A stretch of DNA of 31,519 nt from a virus, in IMG/VR virus record IMGVR_UViG_3300033183_000153, positions 1-31,519 of that record; one strand, 5' to 3'. Both the position numbers and the translations under genes were made by a program. The notes under the pieces were generated by a model, which was not told the DNA's origin, did not search any database, and saw only the letters and a list, made by a program, of their open reading frames with translations. Shown one piece after another: positions 1-12,735 of this stretch (its first letter is position 1; the number at the start of each line of letters is the position of its first letter).

Positions 1-56
1 ACCGCTTGAGTCTCTTCTTTGATGATTTGTTTTAATTGTTCTTTTGTAATATTCAT
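1..56 (-). CDS. Leader-bearing protein, 5' fragment only
   Basis: Only the first 18 full codons are in the window; the gene runs off the left edge. They read MNITKEQLKQIIKEETQA. The ATG at 56 follows an AAGGAG SD eight bases upstream, 13 bases after the stop of the preceding gene. The N-terminus matches the leader seen on the two genes upstream (MKLT..LRRIIKEEL and MKLT..LKRIIKEEL), including an I-K-E tripeptide, so this is probably a third tandem gene carrying the same leader. Nothing can be said about its body. Confidence 0.7.
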   Translation of the reverse strand, partial: MNITKEQLKQIIKEETQA

Positions 57-69
57 TTGTATCTCCTTG

Positions 70-672
70 TTATGGTAATGAAGTTTTTGGAAGATTATCT
101 AGACCTAAGTCCATGTAGAGCGAGTTCATCAATTCGAAAAGATCTTCGGCTTGTAGCGTGTAATAACTTAAGATTTCCGTTAAATTGTCCACAAGGTTTT
201 GTCCTTCGATTATCATCAGTTCGTCAATCTCAAATCCACTGATACCAGCCGATTTCATTACAAATGAAAAATATCCTGCTCGGTCAAGAACTAAATCCAT
301 AGTAATTATTTTGGGCGAAATCTTTTCTTTGAAAAGGTCTGATTTAAACATCGGGAGACTCTCTCCAATCTTTCTGGTTATTCGAGCTTGGCCACTCAAG
401 ATAAGAGATCTCCAAGGCTCTTCTGTCTCATCCCCACTCAATTGATCGAGAGCGTTTTCAATCGTAAAGTTCTCCAAGTAATGACCTCTGTCATCCCAAA
501 AGGTAATTCCTTCCTCCAGTTGCTCGGAATTGCTGCTAGCAAAAATGGTGTCGGAGAGTTTTTCCAAGTAGTTTCTTGTTCTATCCGATCTTTTTGTCTT
601 TGTTTTTTCGCTCAATACGTGAGAAAGCTCTTCTTTGATAATTCTTCGCAGATCTTTGTTTGTAAGTTTCAT
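70..672 (-). CDS. Unknown 200-aa protein with KLT/IIKEEL leader
   Basis: I do not recognise the body of this protein. The N-terminus MKLTNKDLRRIIKEELSHVL is a basic amphipathic helix followed by S-E, giving two (I/L)-x-E tripeptides (IKE and LSE) within 22 residues. A short basic stretch follows (KTKTKRSDR), then an acidic, mainly helical globular region without signal peptide, membrane segment or cysteine pairs. The ATG is one base after the stop of the upstream gene, with AAGGA as SD, so the two are translated together. The leader is shared with several neighbours on unrelated bodies, which suggests a targeting signal. A capsid-internal or virion-associated role is inference only. Confidence 0.8.
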   Translation of the reverse strand: MKLTNKDLRRIIKEELSHVLSEKTKTKRSDRTRNYLEKLSDTIFASSNSEQLEEGITFWDDRGHYLENFTIENALDQLSGDETEEPWRSLILSGQARITRKIGESLPMFKSDLFKEKISPKIITMDLVLDRAGYFSFVMKSAGISGFEIDELMIIEGQNLVDNLTEILSYYTLQAEDLFELMNSLYMDLGLDNLPKTSLP

Positions 673-673
673 A

Positions 674-1336
674 TTAAAGTCCTTGCAATTGCTGATTTGC
701 CCAGTCCCAAAGGGTTACTTGATCCTTATCTAGAAACGCTTCGATCAGAGAATAAAGTGTTGAGTCGTTTTTAAGAGCGTCGCCTTCGAACTTGACCACT
801 TTTTCATGATGAATCCGATCTTTCCCTATGAAAATTCTAAACTGGATACTCGGGACGCGGCTGGTGCTTGGACCTCTGTCGAGTGGGTTCGGTACACTAA
901 ACTTCATGACTACATTTTCTGGACTATTTTGAAAGAATTCCCAACGCTCTTCTTCTGGAAGTGTGCCCATAATTGCCTCTAGATGACCTAGTAAAGGCAT
1001 TGCTGCCTTAAAATAAGCTTCTGAAAACCTTTTTAGGCCAATCCACCGAAAAGCCTCAATGGGTGTTCCACCCTTGTGTTCTAACATGGTTTCAATTGCT
1101 TCCTCGATTGTTCTTGGTTTCAATAAGGCGTCTGGGTCATTTTTTCTTGTTTCGTCATCAAATGTCAATGGGTGGCTAAAAAGCACTACCGATCTCAATG
1201 AAGAGGCTAGGCTGTTCAGGAATTCTAAATTTGCAATTGTTTCATCCGCAACTTGACGCTTATCACCTTTTTCCTGAAGAACATTGGTTAGTTCTTCCTT
1301 GATGATTCTTTTCAATGTTTCTTTTGTAAGTTTCAT
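674..1336 (-). CDS. Unknown 220-aa protein with KLT/IIKEEL leader
   Basis: I chose the ATG at 1336 because the protein then begins MKLTKETLKRIIKEELTNVL, matching the leader of its neighbours, and because this ATG overlaps the upstream stop as ATGA. The longer open frame upstream only reads through the preceding gene. The leader contains IKE and LQE, both (I/L)-x-E tripeptides. The body is acidic and soluble, with a helical first half and a probable beta-rich second half around the stretch VPSIQFRIFIGKDRI. It resembles its 200-aa neighbour in size and position, and both have a TIE(N/E)A stretch, but I cannot show that they are paralogs by eye. Function unknown. Confidence 0.8.
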   Translation of the reverse strand: MKLTKETLKRIIKEELTNVLQEKGDKRQVADETIANLEFLNSLASSLRSVVLFSHPLTFDDETRKNDPDALLKPRTIEEAIETMLEHKGGTPIEAFRWIGLKRFSEAYFKAAMPLLGHLEAIMGTLPEEERWEFFQNSPENVVMKFSVPNPLDRGPSTSRVPSIQFRIFIGKDRIHHEKVVKFEGDALKNDSTLYSLIEAFLDKDQVTLWDWANQQLQGL

Positions 1337-2169
1337 CCTTTCTTTCCTTTGGCTGATTTCTTGCCCCAAGATTTACCTTTGCCCTTCTCCTTACATGCGC
1401 CCGGGGTAGGTCTGCACGAGGGGTACTTGCTTCTCTTTTCGCCTTCGGCTCTTCCGCAAGATTTATATCCACCTTTACCGTCAGGAGCATTACAGTCAAC
1501 CCAGCCGCCTTTTGAACCTTTGGCTCCTTTGCGACCGAACCAATCTCTTAAAGACGACTCTTTTGAGGACTCAGTACCGGCTTTTTTTTTCTTTTCTTCG
1601 TCAAGCATCGGACCTTCGCACATTTCTTTTGCTTCTGCCTGACTTAGTCCTTCGGGCCTATCAGCTCCTTCTTCTGCCATAGCGCACATATATCGCCTTT
1701 GTTTTTCAGAATAAACCTCGTCAAGCTCAAGTTCTTCGTTCTTCTTCGAGTTGCCCCAATTTTTTGCTCCAACCTTGCGACATTTAACTAAGGCACCAGA
1801 AGCATAAGCGGAAGGCCAAGTATCATAGCGAGACTTTACTTTATGATAGCAAGCGTCTTTCTTGCCTTTTGACTTCTTCTTTTTTTTCTTTTTGCGCTTT
1901 TTCTTTTCTTCAATTGTATCAAGTTTGGTATAATATTTTGGATCCTCGATCAAATGATCCATTGCGATTTCATGCGCATAAGCTTGATCGCTTGTATGCT
2001 CCATTTCAACCTCAATTCCTTTCTGCAATTCGGCTTCAATTTCTTCAACGGGAACACCATGAATTTTAGCGATTTGGCGGTGTTGCGCTTCCATATTGCC
2101 TTGCAGGTTGGCTCCTAAACCGCCGGGAATCTTTTCTTTACTTTCCCTAATAATGACTCTAAACTTCAT
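1333..2169 (-). CDS. Modular Lys/Cys-rich protein with DUF5661-like domain
   Basis: A 278-aa protein built of several modules. Residues 1-14 (MKFRVIIRESKEKI) form a short leader with an I-R-E tripeptide. Residues about 38-88 resemble DUF5661, with EHTSDQAYAHEIAMDHL followed by YYTKL. A lysine block (about residues 89-105) comes next. A cysteine module with WPSAYASGALVKCRKVG follows, then a CAMAEE..RPEGLSQAEAKEMC segment. The C-terminal module (WFGRKGAKGSKGGWVDC to YPSCRPTPGAC) is Gly/Lys/Cys-rich and ends in basic KGK repeats. These modules recur, as I remember them, in marine phage proteins of unknown function. The strong basic charge suggests binding to DNA or RNA, possibly inside the capsid. 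SD is GAGGG, 9 bases upstream of the ATG. Confidence 0.85.
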   Translation of the reverse strand: MKFRVIIRESKEKIPGGLGANLQGNMEAQHRQIAKIHGVPVEEIEAELQKGIEVEMEHTSDQAYAHEIAMDHLIEDPKYYTKLDTIEEKKKRKKKKKKKSKGKKDACYHKVKSRYDTWPSAYASGALVKCRKVGAKNWGNSKKNEELELDEVYSEKQRRYMCAMAEEGADRPEGLSQAEAKEMCEGPMLDEEKKKKAGTESSKESSLRDWFGRKGAKGSKGGWVDCNAPDGKGGYKSCGRAEGEKRSKYPSCRPTPGACKEKGKGKSWGKKSAKGKKG

Positions 2170-2189
2170 AATAAACCCTCTTATTGCTT

Positions 2190-2199
2190 ATAAATAGTT
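2190..2199 (-). promoter_or_regulatory. Candidate late promoter element AACTATTTAT
   Basis: The minus strand reads AACTATTTAT here, 20 bases before the ATG at 2169, followed by GAGGGTTT. The same ten bases, then GAGGGTTT, lie 19 bases before the tape measure ATG. There is no -35 hexamer, as in T4-type late promoters, although the T4 consensus TATAAATA is not matched. Calling it a promoter is inference from this repetition. Confidence 0.35.
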
Positions 2200-2204
2200 T
2201 CTTT

Positions 2205-2810
2205 TTAGCCTTTCCAACCAAATAACTGTCTTAGGAAGGCTTTAACGACCAACTCTTTATCGGCGTCGGTCTCAGCTTCTTGTAGCAACCAAGAGTATGT
2301 AGATTTTTCTCTTTTTATCTCCATATCAACTCTGCCAATATCTTCTCGCAAAGATTCAATCGCCTCGTCGTATTCTCCGATCCAAATCTCATATTTATCA
2401 ACAATATCAAACAACTCTCCCCATTTTGCTTCAGACCTAGCAGACATTGCTTTCTTAAAAGCTTCAGAATACTCCCATTTTCTTGGGTCGTCATTGTCTA
2501 GTTTATCGGGGTGAAGCTTTTTTGCTATTTCTTTAAATATCTTTTTAAATTCTCTTTTGTTTGCCTCAAGCTTTTGAATGACTTGTGTGCTTAATTCAGA
2601 AGATTCAATCTTCTCAAATACTGCTTCAATCTTTTGCTGGTTTTGCTTATTAAGTTCTGTTAGATCTACATCATTCTCAGCGCACCATACCCTATAATAC
2701 TCTTCAAATTCCAAATGTCCTTCTTTAAGGACTTCCTTGATATATTGTAACTCATAATCCAAAGTCCTGAACTCATTAAGTAATTTTAAAAACTTGAGCT
2801 TTTCTTTCAT
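2205..2810 (-). CDS. J-domain (DnaJ-like) protein
   Basis: 201 aa. Residues about 86-142 form a J-domain: a basic helix II (KKIFKEIAKKL), the diagnostic HPD tripeptide at 100-102, and a helix III (YSEAFKKAMSARSEA). J-domains stimulate the ATPase of Hsp70/DnaK. Here the domain is in the middle of the protein, flanked by long charged helices that are probably coiled coils (residues 1-70 and 145-190). There is no Gly/Phe region, zinc domain or DnaJ C-terminal domain, so it is a specialised J-protein rather than a full DnaJ. The start overlaps the upstream stop (ATGA). With the GroES-like gene it gives this phage two chaperone-related genes in this window. Confidence 0.85.
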   Translation of the reverse strand: MKEKLKFLKLLNEFRTLDYELQYIKEVLKEGHLEFEEYYRVWCAENDVDLTELNKQNQQKIEAVFEKIESSELSTQVIQKLEANKREFKKIFKEIAKKLHPDKLDNDDPRKWEYSEAFKKAMSARSEAKWGELFDIVDKYEIWIGEYDEAIESLREDIGRVDMEIKREKSTYSWLLQEAETDADKELVVKAFLRQLFGWKG

Positions 2811-3703
2811 TCTAAATCCTCCGCAACTCTATTATATTTAGTTCTCACAAGGACTGATTTCGGTCTCTTTACGCTCATTTGTCTCGAAGCAACGATAAAG
2901 TCAGTATATTCCTCCCAGCTTCTAACATTAAAGAAGTTTTTGACAGGGATGATTTCACTTTCTTCAAGCTTTAATGGGGCAAAAACTTTTTCAACCCCAA
3001 ACCAGCGAGCAGACCACCTTTCTTCAACAGGAAGAAATTCATTGCTCATGGGGGCGGAGCCGGGTACCTTTATACCTGTACCCGTTCTAATGACTCTCCT
3101 GAACTCTAACCAATCATTTTTGTCGAAAGTGAACGAAGTGAACATTCCGTCTTTAACACCAAAGCCATTAGAAGTCATATAGACGTTTTTTGAGCCATGA
3201 ATGATTTTCCTGTGTTCTCGGATTTGAAATGGCTCTGTGTAAGACTGCGCGAAGGATACATAATATCTTGAAGGAGTCGCCCACTTTGTTAAAGAGCTAG
3301 TTACCTTAAAGGCAGTTAAGGCCCCATGAATCACCGACCAAGAAAGACAGTCAATCTTGTCTCGATTCTTTAATGGAACAGGCACATAAAAAACAGGAAT
3401 TCTTCTTTTAGACTCATGAGGAATTGGGTCAAACTTTCGGTTGTTCCAAATCGGGTCAAATACCCAGTCTCCAATCTTCTTTCTTATGATAGGAGCTAGA
3501 TTGTCATTTGCAACAATCCAGATAGATTTGCAGCCAGCCCAAGCACACTCAACAACTGCTGCTTCTATCAAAGAATATCCGCTTGCTATTGGCATAAGAC
3601 AGTCGGGCCAAGGTTGATTAAAGTCGTATTTATCGTGTCCTGCTATGGGAATTATCCCAACCAAGTTTTTTCCTGTGACGTGAGTTTCTTCCACATTATC
3701 CAT
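2807..3703 (-). CDS. Sugar-nucleotidyltransferase-like protein
   Basis: 298 aa. The N-terminus (GIIPIAGHDKYDFNQPWPDC, then LMPIASGYSLIEAAVVEC) has the layout of a GT-A/nucleotidyltransferase fold: a hydrophobic strand, a loop, then a P-I/L segment and a helix, followed by a strand (SIWIVAND). The classic GxGxRxxPLT nucleotide loop is not present in standard form, so catalysis is uncertain. The ATG at 3703 has a strong SD (AGGAAGG) and the gene overlaps the end of the upstream gene by 52 bases. The two are probably co-translated and may act together. Related phage proteins are, as I recall, annotated as nucleotidyltransferases. No substrate can be assigned. Confidence 0.6.
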   Translation of the reverse strand: MDNVEETHVTGKNLVGIIPIAGHDKYDFNQPWPDCLMPIASGYSLIEAAVVECAWAGCKSIWIVANDNLAPIIRKKIGDWVFDPIWNNRKFDPIPHESKRRIPVFYVPVPLKNRDKIDCLSWSVIHGALTAFKVTSSLTKWATPSRYYVSFAQSYTEPFQIREHRKIIHGSKNVYMTSNGFGVKDGMFTSFTFDKNDWLEFRRVIRTGTGIKVPGSAPMSNEFLPVEERWSARWFGVEKVFAPLKLEESEIIPVKNFFNVRSWEEYTDFIVASRQMSVKRPKSVLVRTKYNRVAEDLE

Positions 3704-4407
3704 TCTTTACCTTCCTTTTGTTTCATGTTGTATACTTCTTTAAATGACATTTTTTGTTCTATTCTCGGCAATATCTTTCTGTCAACAAAATCAAACTTAA
3801 CCTTCTTGTGATATCTTTTGTCTCCTCTCTGCCATGCAAACTCGCCTTTAATGTCCTCAGATTTGAATATCCTATGCGTTTTGATTCTTGTCATACCATT
3901 TCCCCAGTCAGGACTTAAAAGCTCGCTGTCGGTCAAATATGAGGCCACAGTGAAGTCTTTTACGCTCTTGTGAACTGAGTGTCTTTGAGTTTCATAAAAA
4001 TAAATCCTGTTGCAGAAATTATCTTCGGTTTGAACAAGGGTTCTGTCGTGGCTTTGTCCAGCTCTCCAGTAAAACTCGTCAAAAACTTGATTAATTCCTA
4101 AATTTTTTCCGTCGAACCTTTTCGGCCTATCTTTGAGCTGGATTCTTGTGTTGTCTTTTGTGATTATCACATTGTCTTCTTCTCGATATGTTGCAATGCG
4201 ATTAGGATACATTAGCAAATTCGTAATGCCCATTATTATGAACAAATTCTGGCAAAATTGTTCAGAATTTTGTACATTAAACTCTGAGAAGTCTATATCG
4301 TCAAATTCGTCGCTTAGCCAGTGAAAACAAAAAGGCTCCTCAAGAATACATTTCTCTTGGAGCCTCCATGCATAAAGAAGCGACGCTATTGTTCTTCCTA
4401 CTATCAA
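3652..4407 (-). CDS. Unknown 251-aa protein, partner of nucleotidyltransferase-like gene
   Basis: I do not recognise this family with confidence. The start is a TTG at 4407 with GAGAGG five bases upstream; no ATG fits better. The N-terminus MIVGRTIASLLYAWRLQ looks like the strand-loop-helix of a dinucleotide-binding or related Rossmann fold, but lacks the GxGxxG signature. The middle is rich in aromatic and charged residues, and no signal peptide or membrane segment is seen. Its 3' end overlaps the nucleotidyltransferase-like gene by 52 bases, which argues for a linked function, perhaps modification of a sugar or glycan. That is inference. Confidence 0.7.
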   Translation of the reverse strand: MIVGRTIASLLYAWRLQEKCILEEPFCFHWLSDEFDDIDFSEFNVQNSEQFCQNLFIIMGITNLLMYPNRIATYREEDNVIITKDNTRIQLKDRPKRFDGKNLGINQVFDEFYWRAGQSHDRTLVQTEDNFCNRIYFYETQRHSVHKSVKDFTVASYLTDSELLSPDWGNGMTRIKTHRIFKSEDIKGEFAWQRGDKRYHKKVKFDFVDRKILPRIEQKMSFKEVYNMKQKEGKEWIMWKKLTSQEKTWLG

Positions 4408-4419
4408 TATTACCTCTCT

Positions 4420-5193
4420 TTAGTCTTCGTCTTCGATTCCTTGCATTGCCATAATTCTCTTTAATCTTTGCATATAATCGTCGTCAAATCTTTTTCTATG
4501 CAATTCTCGACCCTTTTCGGTGCTAGAGTAGGCTTGAACAACGTCTCCCTTTGTTAGCTTAGCTTCTAGCTCTTCTCTTGGAATCGCTCTTAGCATTTCA
4601 AGGACAGAGCCAAAGGCTCTTTTGAAGATTGGATATCCACCTGTCGGATCTCCGAGCCACCAGTCTTGCATTTGACCTAAGAGACCCGAACCTCTTTCCG
4701 TATTCTCAACCTCACCTCGTGAACCGTGAACAGCCACCAAAGAGTCAAAGAATTCTTCAAAATTGTCAAGGAAGAATAGGGCCTCGTTCGCGCTATGGGG
4801 AGCGTTTGAGTTTAAGGCGGTATTCAAATCATCCTTATATAGACTTACCATATATTCAATCAAATCCTCAACAGCTTCTCTACCTAGAACAGTCCACCAC
4901 CAAAAAGTCCAGCCTTCACGAAGCTTTCTTTTGATTGTTGAGTTGGGAGAAGTTCTCAGAGAAGCTAACTCAGGAAAAGAGTTTCTAGCCGTATGAATCA
5001 TTGTATCGAGATCTAAGTTAGCCATGTACTTTCTAGTCCAAGACTTAATATCTCTACCGTGAGAAACAGCGTCAATAAAGTTTCCCATAAAGATTCTTAG
5101 ATTGTCCTCGGACAACTCAGAACCAAGTCTTGTGTTGATTTGTTGATAAACGCCTCTATGACCTTCTCTTAAGAGCTTTAATTTAAATTTCAT
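4420..5193 (-). CDS. Unknown 257-aa protein with MKFKLKLLRE leader
   Basis: Function not recognised. The N-terminus MKFKLKLLREG is basic and hydrophobic and contains L-R-E, resembling the MKFRVIIRES start of the Lys/Cys-rich protein and, more loosely, the KLT leaders nearby. The rest is a mostly helical soluble protein with an unusual tryptophan-rich segment (EGWTFWWWTVLGREAVEDL, about residues 94-112) and a second one (MQDWWLGDPTGGYP). The C-terminus is highly charged. The ATG overlaps the upstream stop (ATGA). A virion or capsid-internal location is suggested only by the leader. Confidence 0.8.
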   Translation of the reverse strand: MKFKLKLLREGHRGVYQQINTRLGSELSEDNLRIFMGNFIDAVSHGRDIKSWTRKYMANLDLDTMIHTARNSFPELASLRTSPNSTIKRKLREGWTFWWWTVLGREAVEDLIEYMVSLYKDDLNTALNSNAPHSANEALFFLDNFEEFFDSLVAVHGSRGEVENTERGSGLLGQMQDWWLGDPTGGYPIFKRAFGSVLEMLRAIPREELEAKLTKGDVVQAYSSTEKGRELHRKRFDDDYMQRLKRIMAMQGIEDED

Positions 5194-5420
5194 ATCAATA
5201 ATCCTTTTAGTCCTTCTTCTGGTACGTTCGTGAAAATCTTACCTTCAATTATAATGTCGTATGCCCAGAACTCCCTTAAAACTTCAGTAGATTCCCAGTC
5301 GCATACATACATAAGTCTAGCTTTATTAGATATTATTCCAAAGCTAGACTTATTTGGTATTATAGAGTAAATAGGTGAATTTCGTTCAAAATTCACGATA
5401 TCACCTATCTCAAACCTCAT
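5190..5420 (-). CDS. Small unknown protein, 76 aa
   Basis: The protein starts MRFEIGDIVNFERNSPIYSI. I use the ATG at 5420, which overlaps the thyX stop as TAATG and has GAGG ten bases upstream; an in-frame extension upstream would only read through thyX. It looks like a small beta-barrel (GDIV, FGIIS, YVCDWE), reminiscent of the many small phage proteins of this size that begin with a GDIV-type turn. A similar GDLV start occurs in the 65-aa protein near 18.3 kb. It overlaps the next gene by four bases. No function assigned. Confidence 0.75.
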   Translation of the reverse strand: MRFEIGDIVNFERNSPIYSIIPNKSSFGIISNKARLMYVCDWESTEVLREFWAYDIIIEGKIFTNVPEEGLKGLLI

Positions 5421-6109
5421 TATTTGCGTACCTCGCGATATGCGCCAACTGTAAATGGCCAAAGAGTTTCTGCAATCTCAAGACAAGCTTCTGCTACTCT
5501 CTGAATCTCCCATTGGGCTCCCTCATGAATTCTCAAGTCGATAAACTTCAAGAGATTATTGAGATTCACAGTTCCATAATATCGAGTGTAGAGATTTTGA
5601 GGCAATACACCTCTTGCTTGTTCTCGACATACTCCCGTATCAACTAACCGATTAAACAACCTTAAAGAGTCTCTATGGTGAGCTCTCACTAGATCACTGG
5701 CTTTGAAGTCTGGTAAGTCGTTGTCAACAATTGGGTCAATTAGCTCGTCTTTAGAGGCTTGTCTATTTGACTCATGTTGAGTGCGGAAACCTTTAGGAAC
5801 ATAAAACTTCATATCTACCTCAGTATATCGTCTCGAAATCTCATTATAGCTCCAAGTTCTATGTCTGTGGTGTTGAGACCTAATGAACAAAGGCACTTCA
5901 AACATAAAAGTAATAAGGTTATGCTCTAAAGTTGAAGTATGTCTATGTTTAATCAAATATTTGATTAATTTCTTGTCTCTTGCATTTAAGTCTCCATCAT
6001 TATCCTGCCCGAAGGATACTCGGGCAGAATTAACGATAGTTTTATCTGTTCCAATGTGATCTACGAGAGATACACTACCAATTCCGTCGCCATATAAATC
6101 AATTTTCAT
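5420..6109 (-). CDS. thyX: Flavin-dependent thymidylate synthase ThyX
   Basis: 229 aa, normal length for the family. ThyX makes dTMP from dUMP with methylene-tetrahydrofolate, FAD and NADPH. The signature RHRX7S is present at 82-92 (RHRTWSYNEIS), followed by RRYTE. The upstream HTSTLEH (57-63) and downstream CREQARGVLPQNLYT segments, which contribute to FAD and dUMP binding, are both intact. It starts three bases after the DUF3293 gene with an AGAGG SD formed by that gene's last codons. With the class II ribonucleotide reductase and thioredoxin it forms a dNTP-supply set. Confidence 0.97.
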   Translation of the reverse strand: MKIDLYGDGIGSVSLVDHIGTDKTIVNSARVSFGQDNDGDLNARDKKLIKYLIKHRHTSTLEHNLITFMFEVPLFIRSQHHRHRTWSYNEISRRYTEVDMKFYVPKGFRTQHESNRQASKDELIDPIVDNDLPDFKASDLVRAHHRDSLRLFNRLVDTGVCREQARGVLPQNLYTRYYGTVNLNNLLKFIDLRIHEGAQWEIQRVAEACLEIAETLWPFTVGAYREVRK

Positions 6110-6111
6110 TA

Positions 6112-7008
6112 TTACCTCTTGTTAATCATTTCAGCTAATTGTCGTTTTGCTTTCAATAAACGGTGTCTTCCATAATATTTTGAAGAGCCCAATCTATTTG
6201 ATTCGCAAATTTGTTTAGACAATCTTCTAATTTGCTCTGCAAGCTTTTGAGCTTGGATTGTATTTGGAACAGCAGACTCCTTAATAAAGATATACTTTGC
6301 TTCTCGAACATATCGTGGAGACTTCAAAGGATCTGTCAAAGGAAGGCCTTGTTGGTTGCTACCCTTAAAGAAGTCAATAGAGAATTTCTTACCTCGCTTG
6401 TATCCGCTAGGTCTGATCTCTCCACCTTTCTTTTTTGTAGTCCAAACTTTGTCTGGAACATGAGAGTAATAATCTGTTGCTGAGGCCATTTCGTCATGTC
6501 CTGAGATAGTACCAGAAAACTCTTCTGATTCAATGGGAACTTGTGCTGGAACAGTGTAAACTGGGCCGTATTCTTCCATAGGAAACTCAGGGTCTTGTTG
6601 AGCGCCTTCAAAGTCAATATAGTACATTGTGTGATCCATTTCATTTTGAGTTTTAACTGAATGGATAAATGATTCTTGGCCATACTTGTAAGATAGTTTC
6701 TTAGCGTCTTCCAAGGTCATGTGAGGCACCATATAAGAATCTTCAGGACCTTCATACATTCCAGAAACGATTCTAAACCCATATCCCATTGAAGCCATTT
6801 CTTGCTCAAATTTTTGAGCTCTCAATCCATTTTGTTTAGGAGTCAAAGGTTTAGCATGAGGGTTCTCAGGTGTCAATATAGCTACTTGGTCTACAGAGTC
6901 AACATTGCCTTGAAACATGTTCATGATTCTATCATACTCTGTATTTTGTGTAGCTTCGTTAAGTACCTCATTAATAAGGCTTTTTAATAATTTAGTGGTT
7001 ATCTTCAT
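6112..7008 (-). CDS. DUF3293-like protein with KIT leader
   Basis: 298 aa from the ATG at 7008, which has GGAG eight bases upstream; the longer frame only reads into the GroES-like gene. Residues 1-18 (MKITTKLLKSLINEVLNE) are the family leader, here with INE and LNE. Residues about 40-125 match the DUF3293 pattern: a strand ending in TPENPHAKPLTPKQN, then a G.YEGPEDSY.VP segment and the LSYKYGQES motif. The C-terminal third ends in a strongly basic helical tail (RLGSSKYYGRHRLLKAKRQ). DUF3293 has no established biochemical function. The gene overlaps the GroES-like gene by 17 bases. Confidence 0.8.
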   Translation of the reverse strand: MKITTKLLKSLINEVLNEATQNTEYDRIMNMFQGNVDSVDQVAILTPENPHAKPLTPKQNGLRAQKFEQEMASMGYGFRIVSGMYEGPEDSYMVPHMTLEDAKKLSYKYGQESFIHSVKTQNEMDHTMYYIDFEGAQQDPEFPMEEYGPVYTVPAQVPIESEEFSGTISGHDEMASATDYYSHVPDKVWTTKKKGGEIRPSGYKRGKKFSIDFFKGSNQQGLPLTDPLKSPRYVREAKYIFIKESAVPNTIQAQKLAEQIRRLSKQICESNRLGSSKYYGRHRLLKAKRQLAEMINKR

Positions 7009-7282: not shown

Positions 7283-7296
7283 AATTCCTCCATAAT

Positions 7297-7562: not shown

Positions 7563-9482
7563 TTAAAAAATTTCACAGGATCCACCACCACAGGCAATTT
7601 CTCCCGACAGATCTGTTTCATCTTCTGCTTCTATAACTAGATTCAAGTCAACGTTTTTGACCAACTGAAGCATTCTTTCGTACTCTTCTTCAGTACAATC
7701 TTCAAAAGGAGCTTGTACATAAGTGCCTCCGTCATACGGTAAAACTGAGAGTCCATTATAATATTCTCGGTTCTCCCACATCCACTCTCCAACAGAATCC
7801 CACTCTTCGTCTTTGATAGAAACTGTAGCGGAAACATTGTGCCCATTAGAGCCTTTTTGGTGGCCTCCACGAACCCATTCATTTGAAACTTTCTTAATTC
7901 TCTCAAGCAAGTCATGAGCGCTTTCATGGCGAGTGATTGCGCCTTCAGGAGCTTTTTGTGGAATAGTGATAATCGCAGTGTCGTGAGGTCTAAACTTATC
8001 ATCTTCAACTAACTCAGGAAGATTGTCTCTAAGGTAGCTGTAAATCGCTTCATTTTTTCCTACGCGCAATCTGCGTAGATAAAAGTCATTATGCCACGCA
8101 TGGATTCCAGAAGAAGTTCCCAAAGTTAAAGAGGTTGTTCCAGCAGGCTTAACGCAAGTTGTTCTAGCTGCTTTGTTGATTCCAATTTGCATTGCCACTC
8201 TTCTGTTTTCTTTATTAACTTCCAATGAGGCCTCAGACATATCAAGTTTAAGAACGCCTCCAGAAGCAATGCCGGTCATAGAAACGCCAATAAGGGCCTC
8301 TTTTTCCGTTGTTCGCTTCCAGATAGGTCTTAGGTAGTGAAAGTCCGTATAAGAGGCTTGAAGGGTCGCTATGAAGCTCGCAGCGCGTGATCTAGCATTT
8401 AAATCTTCTTGGGTTTCAATATCAGATACATTGATCTCAACCAAGTTACAGAATTGGAAAGGTCGGAGACCAATCTCGCAGCAAGGATTACAACCCCAAT
8501 CTTTGTCGTTTGACAGATAGAATCCGGGCTCACCAGAGCGAGACTCTTCTGTTCTTTTCCAAACCTTCATAAAGGTTTCTTTATCAATCTTATGACGCAT
8601 AAGAACTACAGAGTTGTTTGCTCTTCCTCGCTGTGGGTTAAGTTCCCACCAAGCTCCCGCCTTGGCTCCAAGCATTTCTTCATCATCAGCGGAGAAAAGA
8701 GAAATGAGAGCAGCCCGTCGAATACCACCAGCCAAAACAGCGTCCGCAATATAGCAGACGATATCATGCACCTCAATAGGAGTGAGTTGTTCACCATCTT
8801 CTTTAGCATCTAATAGACCCTCAATTTTTACCAAGCATTCTTTCAGTGGTTGTGGGCCGGGAGCCTTTCCACCGGAAGTAACTAGTCTCGCACCTTTCGG
8901 ACGGATATCAGAAAAATCAAAACGCAACTTTGAAGAGCCTTTGAAGTAAGATTGGATCAAAGCTTTTACAGCGTCAGCCCAACCTTCAATTGAGTCTCCA
9001 ATAAGAAAACGACGAGTTCTTTTTGTGCTTGGCTTATGAATCTCTGGAAGTTTTTCTACGTGGTGGTGTTGAACTGAATATCCAACTCCAGTTCCACCTA
9101 ACAACAAAAACATGATCTCACCAAATACTCGAGGATCATCAATTGGAGCATAAGCGCAGTTAAAAATTCGATTAGGAGAAACCTCAATTGGTTTTCCACC
9201 AAATTGCATTGAGCGCATTGAAGGAAGAACCTGTTTGTTAAATACGTACTGATATACTTCTCGAATCTCAGACTCTAAGCTAGGGAACTTCTTAATGTGC
9301 ATATTCATATTGCGAGTTACCAACTCGTCCCAGTTCTCTCGACGTTGTTTTTCGTCAATATACTTTGCGTACTTCATGTGGACAGTAATGTCCGATAAGA
9401 TTGATTTTTCCAAATCCATAGTTTTTCTCCTGTTTCTATAAGCTTTTTTTTCTTCTAATGTGTAATATGTTGACTCTTCCAT
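7563..9482 (-). CDS. nrdJ: Class II (B12-dependent) ribonucleotide reductase
   Basis: 639 aa; probably a monomeric adenosylcobalamin-dependent reductase like the Lactobacillus enzyme, which reduces ribonucleoside triphosphates. The catalytic residues fit: C109 (in NCAYAP) and C345 (in QFCNLVEIN) as the disulfide pair, and the NPC-x-E motif at 332-336 with thiyl C334. The 11-residue distance between C334 and C345 equals that in the Lactobacillus protein. The C-terminal redox pair CGGGSC, three residues from the end, shuttles electrons from thioredoxin, which this phage also encodes. The glycine-rich segment LLLGGTGVGYSVQ is present and no intein is seen. SD is AGGAGG. The host or medium must supply cobalamin. 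Confidence 0.96.
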   Translation of the reverse strand: MEESTYYTLEEKKAYRNRRKTMDLEKSILSDITVHMKYAKYIDEKQRRENWDELVTRNMNMHIKKFPSLESEIREVYQYVFNKQVLPSMRSMQFGGKPIEVSPNRIFNCAYAPIDDPRVFGEIMFLLLGGTGVGYSVQHHHVEKLPEIHKPSTKRTRRFLIGDSIEGWADAVKALIQSYFKGSSKLRFDFSDIRPKGARLVTSGGKAPGPQPLKECLVKIEGLLDAKEDGEQLTPIEVHDIVCYIADAVLAGGIRRAALISLFSADDEEMLGAKAGAWWELNPQRGRANNSVVLMRHKIDKETFMKVWKRTEESRSGEPGFYLSNDKDWGCNPCCEIGLRPFQFCNLVEINVSDIETQEDLNARSRAASFIATLQASYTDFHYLRPIWKRTTEKEALIGVSMTGIASGGVLKLDMSEASLEVNKENRRVAMQIGINKAARTTCVKPAGTTSLTLGTSSGIHAWHNDFYLRRLRVGKNEAIYSYLRDNLPELVEDDKFRPHDTAIITIPQKAPEGAITRHESAHDLLERIKKVSNEWVRGGHQKGSNGHNVSATVSIKDEEWDSVGEWMWENREYYNGLSVLPYDGGTYVQAPFEDCTEEEYERMLQLVKNVDLNLVIEAEDETDLSGEIACGGGSCEIF

Positions 9483-11121: not shown

Positions 11122-12072
11122 TTACCTCCGTATATTTCTAAAAACTTGTTGTAAATCGTTAAAGTTCAAATGCCCAGCGTCATCGTCAAATAGCATTTGA
11201 GTGAACTTAATTTTGTCAAAATAAGGCTCGAAATCAGCCAAAGCTTTATCGATCATCATTCTGTTGATAGGTCTAATGTTCGGATAATATAGCTGCATTA
11301 TTTTGAAGTTGTCCTTAACTAGTTGCTCGTTAGCCTCAATGTTCTCATGTAATTTTAGTTTTTTTGTTTGCATGGCGCAGTCTCTGATAATATCGGAAGT
11401 TTCATAAGCGTCCTCTCTTACCAAATAAGGAAAGCGCTTTGCAATGGTTTTAAGGCCAGCACCTTTAATGCCGGGAAGGTTATCGCTTGGATCTCCTGCC
11501 ATTGCTCTTGCTAATGCAAAATTCTTTGGATGAATCTTGAATTCTTCCAAAACAGAATCTTTTGTCACGACTTTCTTTTGAATTGGGCGATAAATTTGAG
11601 TTTCCTCGTCGCACAACTGAAAGAAGTCTTTGTCTGAAGATATAATTGTTTTTCTCCAGCCTTTGTATTGCTTTGTTTTGACAACGTGTGCAATGATATC
11701 GTCTGCTTCTGTAAAGTCTACAATAAGCTGAATTACAGGCATTTGATTGAGGTATTCCATCAACCTTATTTGTTGATATCCTTTGTTTGCCGCTTCTTGA
11801 TCCTCTGGTAATTCAATCATTCTTCGATTGAATCTCACAGGCTTACGGCCACCTTTATAGTCTTTGTTCATAGAACGCTTTCTTTGAGAACCTTCATGGC
11901 CGTCCCAAGCTACGATTATCTCGTCAGCGTTGAAATCCCTAGCCACCTTTTGAAGGCTTTTTAAAAAGCCAATAGTGCCGCCTACAGGCATACCTTTTTT
12001 GTCTAAATGAGGGCTAATCACATAGCTTCTCAAAAACATGTTTAGTGCGTCAATAATAATAACGTTTTTCAT
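11122..12072 (-). CDS. 5'-3' exonuclease / RNase H (FEN family), internal start
   Basis: 316 aa from an in-frame internal ATG at 12072 that has a strong GGAGGACAAATG start site, the same one used by the DNA polymerase gene. The family removes RNA primers and 5' flaps, like T4 RNase H. Metal-binding acidic motifs are visible: IIIDALN near the N-terminus, AWDGHEGSQRKR, TEADDI, and SSDKDFFQL. A helix-three-turn-helix-like GDPSDNLPGIKGAG follows. This is probably the original replication gene, into whose 5' side the endonuclease was inserted. The free form is expected beside, or instead of, the 537-aa fusion. Whether both are made cannot be told from sequence. Confidence 0.75.
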   Translation of the reverse strand: MKNVIIIDALNMFLRSYVISPHLDKKGMPVGGTIGFLKSLQKVARDFNADEIIVAWDGHEGSQRKRSMNKDYKGGRKPVRFNRRMIELPEDQEAANKGYQQIRLMEYLNQMPVIQLIVDFTEADDIIAHVVKTKQYKGWRKTIISSDKDFFQLCDEETQIYRPIQKKVVTKDSVLEEFKIHPKNFALARAMAGDPSDNLPGIKGAGLKTIAKRFPYLVREDAYETSDIIRDCAMQTKKLKLHENIEANEQLVKDNFKIMQLYYPNIRPINRMMIDKALADFEPYFDKIKFTQMLFDDDAGHLNFNDLQQVFRNIRR

Positions 12073-12735
12073 TTGTCCTCCGTGTTTTTCAAGCAACCTT
12101 AGTTGCTCAACTGTTAATGTTAAATTGTATATGTCAATGTTGGCATTTATATGCTTCCTGATTTCTCTAGCTTCCTCCAACAGGAGCGTACTTTTGTCTT
12201 TTTCAACTTCTTTAAGGATTGAGAATTCAAAAGATTCCTCGCCATATTTCAAATAATCTTCTTGCAAATATTTGTTTCCGTGATATCCGCCTCTCAACCT
12301 TGAGATGTGTTGAGATTTTCTGGTGTCAAACATCAGCGTTTCACCAATGTAAATTCTACCGGTAGATGCGTTAGTTATCGTATAAATACATGACTTCTCT
12401 ATGTTCTTTCTTTTATACTTTGCTCTAGCAGTAGCTTTTGATATTATGTCAGGATTTTTTTTAGCATACACTCTATTGTATTCAGCATTTTTTTTCTTTA
12501 TATCTGGTTGAGAGCGGTATTCGTTTTTTTTCTTTAAAATATCTTCTTTATTTTCTTTATAATATTTTTGACTACATTTAGTTCTTCTTGACTTAACCTC
12601 TGGTCTACTGTTGTATTCTTTTGCATGCTTATTGCAACATTCTTTACAAGAAGATTTTAAGCCGGACTTCAAACGAGGGTCTTTGTGAAACGCTGATATT
12701 GATTTTTCGATTCCGCATTTAGAACATTTTTTCAT
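11122..12735 (-). CDS. GIY-YIG endonuclease fused in frame to 5'-3' exonuclease
   Basis: 537 aa in one uninterrupted frame. Residues 1-35 form a four-cysteine zinc module (CSKC...CKEC). Residues 45-110 hold degenerate Tyr/Asn/Lys repeats common in phage homing endonucleases. Residues 116-190 are a GIY-YIG nuclease: IYT at 117-119, YIG at 129-131, R139, H143 and a candidate catalytic Glu at 187/188. Residues 222-537 are the exonuclease described separately. No DNA-binding NUMOD tail lies between them. The ATG directly follows the upstream stop, with GGAG as SD. The protein may be a true fusion or an endonuclease whose stop was lost. The endonuclease part is typical of mobile intronless homing genes. 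Confidence 0.85.
   Translation of the reverse strand: MKKCSKCGIEKSISAFHKDPRLKSGLKSSCKECCNKHAKEYNSRPEVKSRRTKCSQKYYKENKEDILKKKNEYRSQPDIKKKNAEYNRVYAKKNPDIISKATARAKYKRKNIEKSCIYTITNASTGRIYIGETLMFDTRKSQHISRLRGGYHGNKYLQEDYLKYGEESFEFSILKEVEKDKSTLLLEEAREIRKHINANIDIYNLTLTVEQLRLLEKHGGQMKNVIIIDALNMFLRSYVISPHLDKKGMPVGGTIGFLKSLQKVARDFNADEIIVAWDGHEGSQRKRSMNKDYKGGRKPVRFNRRMIELPEDQEAANKGYQQIRLMEYLNQMPVIQLIVDFTEADDIIAHVVKTKQYKGWRKTIISSDKDFFQLCDEETQIYRPIQKKVVTKDSVLEEFKIHPKNFALARAMAGDPSDNLPGIKGAGLKTIAKRFPYLVREDAYETSDIIRDCAMQTKKLKLHENIEANEQLVKDNFKIMQLYYPNIRPINRMMIDKALADFEPYFDKIKFTQMLFDDDAGHLNFNDLQQVFRNIRR

Follow-up and report, generated by a model that had tools for sequence, protein, structure and literature searches.

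Known and Probable Capsid-Targeting Leaders in Described Phages

The internal proteins IPI, IPII and IPIII of phage T4 carry a short N-terminal capsid-targeting sequence (CTS) on unrelated, fast-changing bodies, which ends in (I/L)-x-E and is cut by a gp21-type protease. For IPIII the first ten residues suffice for targeting, and processing depends on residues 8 and 10 (PMC9026906). In the T4 records the cut sites read MKTYQEFIAE|A for ipII and ipIII, MAKINELLRE|S for gp24, MLKEQLIAE|A for gp22 and FLTE|A for gp23. Here we describe leaders of a comparable architecture, which are encoded in the IMG/VR record IMGVR_UViG_3300033183_000153, a 31.5-kb viral fragment (positions 1 to 31,519, referred to as the window) of a marine T4-like, contractile-tailed phage. 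Judging from sequence comparisons, these leaders are likely to be capsid-targeting propeptides which would be cut by a gp21-type protease as in T4, and which form a new sequence class. They comprise about 18-22 residues and thus differ in length as well as in sequence from the ten-residue T4 CTS (MKTYQEFIAE), and they stand on far more genes.

A similar arrangement is found in the T4-like cyanophage S-CREM2, which has a prohead protease and a published virion proteome (PMC10665884), and whose virion-detected non-structural proteins share a leader ending in FL(T/E)E. Among the non-structural-type proteins detected there by mass spectrometry, the S-adenosylmethionine (SAM) hydrolase gp6 starts with MKDFDSFLEE, the kinase gp14 with MKRFDAFLTE and the cytidylyltransferase gp154 with MKNFSSFLTE; further detected starts are MKDLHSFLTE and MQTFSMFFSE, gp13 and gp136 being the other proteins marked in this way. 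MKxFxxFLxE starts are enriched among the virion-detected proteins (Fisher P 0.001-0.007), the test scoring four of five and not five of six leader proteins, as the ORF picking missed the kinase gp14. In the sections of that publication considered here, the leaders are not discussed, and N-terminal processing is not reported. In Salmonella phage SPN3US and in phage phiKZ, many ejected head proteins lose their propeptides to a prohead protease (PMC9026906, PMC10052503), but the motif of phiKZ is S/A-x-E and the genomes are not of the T4 type.

Leader Sequences Encoded in the Window

Six genes within 1-7 kb of the window, all located on the - strand, had been described in a first-pass annotation as starting with similar leaders, and translation confirmed their starts and coordinates. 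The similarity holds for four of them. An MK(I/L)TxxxLKxIIKEE-like leader, whose extended form is MK(I/L)TKxxLKxIIKEExxxVLxE, is common to three intact genes and to a truncated gene start at 1-56 (MNITKEQLKQIIKEETQA). The intact representatives are gene 70-672 with the leader MKLTNKDLRRIIKEELSHVLSE (607-672; candidate cuts IIKE|E and VLSE|K), gene 674-1336 with the leader MKLTKETLKRIIKEELTNVLQE (1271-1336; candidate cuts IIKE|E and VLQE|K) and gene 6112-7008, encoding a DUF3293 protein, with the leader MKITTKLLKSLINEVLNE (6955-7008; candidate cut VLNE|A). Pfam and PHROG searches with the body of gene 70-672 gave no match. A search of viral contigs revealed no close relatives of gene 674-1336, and two unrelated proteins of the relative G024 resemble it in the leader region only.

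The two remaining genes have a short, basic and different start ending in IIRE or LLRE, which does not match the shared leader: MKFRVIIRE followed by S in gene 1333-2169 (2143-2169) and MKFKLKLLRE followed by G in gene 4420-5193 (5164-5193). The cited genes therefore appear to fall into a strong class of four and a weak class of two members. Within the latter, some support for gene 1333-2169 comes from the DUF5661 homologue of Flavobacterium phage immuto, which begins with MKKSQLRQIIKEA, unlike MKFRVIIRE; gene 4420-5193 is the weakest member, and a homologue of it with a full leader was not found. Both short starts, as well as the predicted capsid protein site LL(K/R)E|(A/S) discussed below, resemble LLRE|S of T4 gp24 and LIAE|A of T4 gp22, although gp24, gp22, gp21 and gp23 are structural head proteins which are not homologous to the window proteins.

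All six genes encode an (I/L)-x-E somewhere in residues 1-22, as had been put forward as their common feature. This is correct but carries little weight, as 12 of the 40 window proteins (30%) pass compared to 24% of internal 22-residue stretches. Plain counting of (I/L)-x-E was rejected as a test, being near background in the window. The string (I/L)(I/L/V)(R/K)E(S/A/G), which fits both weak leaders and was picked after both had been seen, occurs at two of 40 window N-termini and in none of 684 internal stretches; it is not enriched in the relatives.

Distribution and Conservation of the Leader in Marine Phages

A profile built from four window leaders (threshold 18) gave eight N-terminal matches in each of the genomes G024, G038 and G033, where approximately zero were predicted from the internal rate, and a few internal matches in other genomes. 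At the DNA level, the leader pattern was detected in at least 120 stretches of viral contigs, whereas prokaryote genomes totalling 264 Gb contained a single stretch, which sits on a contig with a phage-like gene cassette. Other genes with the same leader, a search for which had been proposed in the first-pass annotation, were found: 341 distinct leader proteins are encoded in marine phage contigs, and the leader is almost confined to N-termini. Chance or the composition bias of an AT- and Lys-rich phage would account for the near-background frequency of the plain (I/L)-x-E; given the N-terminal specificity and the virus-only distribution of the leader, we attribute practically no probability to this explanation.

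Alignment of the 341 proteins yielded the consensus MK(I/L)TKxQLKxIIKEELxxVLxE. The proteins were selected on positions up to the first EE only; positions +5 to +11 are conserved though unselected, and the information drops to background beyond residue 22. A second (I/L/M)-x-E at one fixed offset, ending near residue 22, is present in 112 of the 341 leaders, compared to about six expected by an estimate from residue frequencies. The leader is used in a modular manner on unrelated bodies, which form 251 clusters at E 1e-3 including 222 singletons, a count in which the shortness of the bodies (median 115 aa) may hide distant relationships. A Pfam comparison of 82 leader proteins gave matches to 14 families, nearly all of them repeat or SAM lyase models, and certain bodies resemble enzymes or proteins with a binding fold, namely DUF3293 and the pentapeptide and leucine-rich repeats.

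In several genomes the leader genes stand in tandem, which could suggest that the leaders are by-products of a mobile promoter, ribosome-binding-site or start cassette which was duplicated before many genes, and the codon agreement at the same residue is indeed slightly over random (0.53 vs 0.41). Nevertheless, the codons are for the most part randomised and their agreement is near random; it is therefore the peptide that has been maintained, and the leaders are not recent DNA copies. Two near-identical window leaders share 14% of the codons at identical residues (7 pairs only), and leader copies are also located inside proteins. The start cassette, disfavoured by the codon agreement, is accordingly regarded as highly improbable.

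When the 22 residues of the leader by themselves were compared with isolate phages by tblastn, no match was obtained, the query being too short, and the conserved leader gene in the head module of G024 was also without match in isolate phages. The best leader-bearing isolate identified is Flavobacterium phage vB_FspM_immuto_2-6A, which has leaders at 7295, 7881, 16185, 18189 and 28356 of locus L159. A description of the leader was not found in the open-licence full-text literature.

A second leader class, MKLLLENWRxFLxE, was observed in these phages on tandem unrelated genes (L416, 986-5239; also G054, G038, G048 and G007), with 23 N-terminal and no internal occurrences in the genomes scanned. 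In its form it is nearer to the T4 CTS than the main leader class. A further observation concerns contig L113, in which the gene 541-1350 (- strand) encodes the leader MKLNSVELKKLILEVMEE with the sequence RRDFLKGVAGAAGLAAA directly behind it, which resembles a twin-arginine signal (Pfam TAT_signal, below the cut-off with E 0.0018); loss of the leader would uncover this export signal.

Association with the S77 Protease and the Head Genes

The gene order of the window is kept in the full-size relatives G018 (191.7 kb) and G024 (183.9 kb), in which most window proteins occur in order, and both encode an S77 protease. For a comparison independent of the leader, contigs were chosen by ThyX and evaluated if they were 70 kb or longer. 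The density of leader cores was 23.8 per Mb in S77-positive and 6.8 per Mb in S77-negative contigs, with 2.1-3.9 per Mb in the reversed-pattern control, the value for the S77-positive contigs being 2.1; after removal of one fragment sharing hits with an S77-positive phage, the S77-negative density was 2.2 per Mb. At least two leader cores were present in 10 of 13 S77-positive compared to one of 10 S77-negative contigs (Fisher P 0.002).

The leader genes are also neighbors of the protease gene. In nine of 10 relatives a leader gene lies at most two genes away from the S77 protease, but the corresponding P of 3e-7 overstates the adjacency, as one orthologous family recurs in many of these related genomes; without this conserved family the conservative figure is five of 10 (P 0.011). 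Leader genes directly flank the protease on both sides in G024, precede it in G033 and G038 and follow it in G001 and G007. In T4, the genes 67 and 68 and their neighbors occupy the slots which are held by leader genes beside the protease in the relatives. This position between portal and protease, or right after the protease, would also be expected if the leader proteins were targeted and cut but served as parts of the prohead core or scaffold like T4 gp67 and gp68, being consumed and not delivered, and many bodies are short and without known domains. The 251 body clusters are, however, more numerous and more variable than an assembly scaffold needs, some bodies look enzyme-like or like binding folds, and a SAM hydrolase and a kinase are among the leader proteins of S-CREM2. 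We therefore consider a mere scaffold function unlikely.

The leader further shares its core with a predicted site in the capsid protein. The major capsid protein of contig L162 reads NQAKSLLKE|ANTM with the predicted maturation site LLKE|A. L162 and L083 have identical neck proteins, and L083 in turn has a tail tube protein 99% identical to that of the window. The predicted sites in the capsid proteins of the relatives are LL(K/R)E|(A/S/Q), all of them deduced from position and motif, and one (I/L)(I/L)(K/R)E core is common to the leader and the predicted capsid site. In T4 gp23 the cut FLTE|A lies in the corresponding region. Alternatively, the leader could be an uncleaved docking helix whose partner, from the phage or the host, has nothing to do with the head, and in which (I/L)-x-E would be incidental to an amphipathic helix. 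The leader is predicted to form a helix, which spans residues 5-20 in the DUF3293 model, amphipathic helices frequently contain L, I and E, and IIKE|E would be an unusual site. Against such a docking function stand the association of the leader with the S77 protease and the neighbors of its gene, the end of conservation near the second (I/L)-x-E, and the DUF3293 relatives, in which (I/L)-x-E is invariant and the next residue variable. In view of these findings, uncleaved docking appears improbable, and less probable than the scaffold function.

Capsid targeting with cleavage is the preferred explanation and appears likely, and the following mechanism can be proposed for the propeptide. The amphipathic, basic N-terminal helix (MK(I/L)TKxxLKxIIKEE...) would bind the prohead core, a gp21-type S77 protease would cut after (I/L)-x-E at the end of the leader (LSE, LQE, LNE and possibly IIKE), and the body would be left inside the head. 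As the window lacks a protease gene, the enzyme is inferred from the relatives.

Several observations weigh against this interpretation. Within the 31.5-kb window no capsid, head or protease gene is present; the gp21-like protease which the first-pass annotation had proposed to look for was found in the syntenic G018 and G024. Of the 29 contigs with leaders that span 30 kb or more, most of them fragments, only 17 show S77. A second (I/L/M)-x-E within 20 residues is missing in 101 of the 341 leaders, and a cut at IIKE|E would leave a Glu after the cut, where the T4 and capsid protein sites have A or S. The exact leader is known from no virion protein. For S-CREM2, the authors allow for co-purification (PMC10665884), and the S-CREM2 leader (MKxFxxFLTE) belongs to another sequence class, which by analogy supports the principle and not directly the window proteins. 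The initial assumption of gp21-type capsid-targeting leaders is strengthened by the S77 association, the protease neighbors, the residues of the capsid site, the end of conservation and the S-CREM2 analogue; it lost the support of the plain (I/L)-x-E motif, and two of the six leaders proved to be of a different kind.

Putative Cargo Proteins

The profile searches agreed with the initial assignment of DUF3293, DUF5661-like and Lys/Cys-rich proteins among the bodies. The DUF3293 body (6112-6954, - strand) is, by its profile and structure matches, a possible SAM-degrading anti-restriction cargo. It matches the profiles DUF3293 (5e-10) and S-AdoMet_lyase (E 0.021), the match to the SAM lyase family PF23780 (15.2 bits) being below the curated cut-off of 28. 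In a Foldseek search with its structure model, which is of low confidence (mean pLDDT 58), the SAM lyase of phage T3 took ranks 1-3 in the PDB (probability 0.97-1.00, E 0.017-0.047). A profile comparison with the T3 SAM lyase was not significant, and a PDB sequence search with a six-sequence DUF3293 alignment gave no match; this alignment was used instead of an iterated profile, which drifted onto the leader (402 leader proteins). The bodies of the relatives are 26-33% identical to that of the window, and (I/L)-x-E at residues 16-18 is kept in six of six aligned sequences, followed by a variable residue. Comparison of the family with S-CREM2 gp6 by hhalign resulted in an E of 0.0018 but a probability of 15%, while this virion SAM hydrolase is a clear member of PF23780 (2e-19). 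The T3 enzyme, itself a member of PF23780, is the best structural and a weak profile match of the DUF3293 body, and it differs in having no such leader and in being made in the cell. A SAM-degrading, anti-restriction role of the DUF3293 protein is plausible. SAM lyases are known to rescue an E. coli ilvA auxotroph.

A DUF3293 domain was also observed embedded in an 11-kb gene of a structural protein in contig L541 and in Flavobacterium phages elemo, which possibly encodes an injected multi-domain protein.

Gene 1333-2169 (- strand) encodes a DUF5661 and Lys/Cys-rich multi-module protein. On the same strand, I-E-E (1906-1914) precedes a poly-Lys/DACYHKVKSRY module, L-D-E (1717-1725) a VYSEKQRRYMCA module and a further L-D-E (1597-1605) a KKKAG-TESSKESSLRDWF module. 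Elsewhere these modules are found rearranged, and also as individual proteins bearing a leader. In raw counts, (I/L)-x-E stands in front of the SEKQRR module in seven of seven instances and at most four residues away from the start of the poly-Lys/DACY module in 41 of 54 (V and M also allowed), and full leader copies lie between the modules in several relatives. The motifs at the module boundaries together with the internal leader copies suggest that proteins of this type are polyproteins, which would be cut between the modules by the same protease that cuts the leader.

Leader-like sequences were noted inside multi-module Lys/Cys-rich proteins of contigs L017, L024, L044, L253 and L396, and the module SEKQRRYMCAM also stands alone behind an N-terminal leader.

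Further Gene Content of the Window

Genes for tail sheath, tube, hub and baseplate proteins are located at 18-31.5 kb, and the middle of the window carries genes encoding a DNA polymerase, a RecA-like protein, a helicase, a reductase and ThyX. The exonuclease gene (11122-12735) has an in-frame N-terminal addition which resembles a homing endonuclease of the GIY-YIG/HNH type and has a zinc-finger-like start. This addition is absent in the near-identical phage L082 (446-1432), and L081 (4299-5887) contains a different insertion in the same place. The homologue of the reductase gene 7563-9482 is divided into two reading frames in G024 (60441-61484 and 62323-63624), which suggests an intron or insertion.

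Implications for Phage Particles

With the tag as a head-entry signal which is removed by the head protease, the particles of the leader-bearing phages probably contain an extensive and exchangeable repertoire of proteins. The chances that active proteins are delivered into the host together with the DNA appear about even. More tentatively, a single tag of about 22 residues, along with the class MKLLLENWRxFLxE and the polyprotein copies, may load hundreds of unrelated protein families including SAM-degrading anti-restriction enzymes, which would turn the virion into a programmable delivery particle.

The bodies of the leader proteins are mostly without known domain. If the proposed function is true, the cargo carried by the virions of a large, uncultured group of marine phages could be predicted from a simple sequence signature at the N-terminus, and hundreds of "hypothetical proteins" would become candidates for early take-over of the host and counter-defence. 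The leaders would also represent new targeting peptides with which phage heads could be loaded with proteins.

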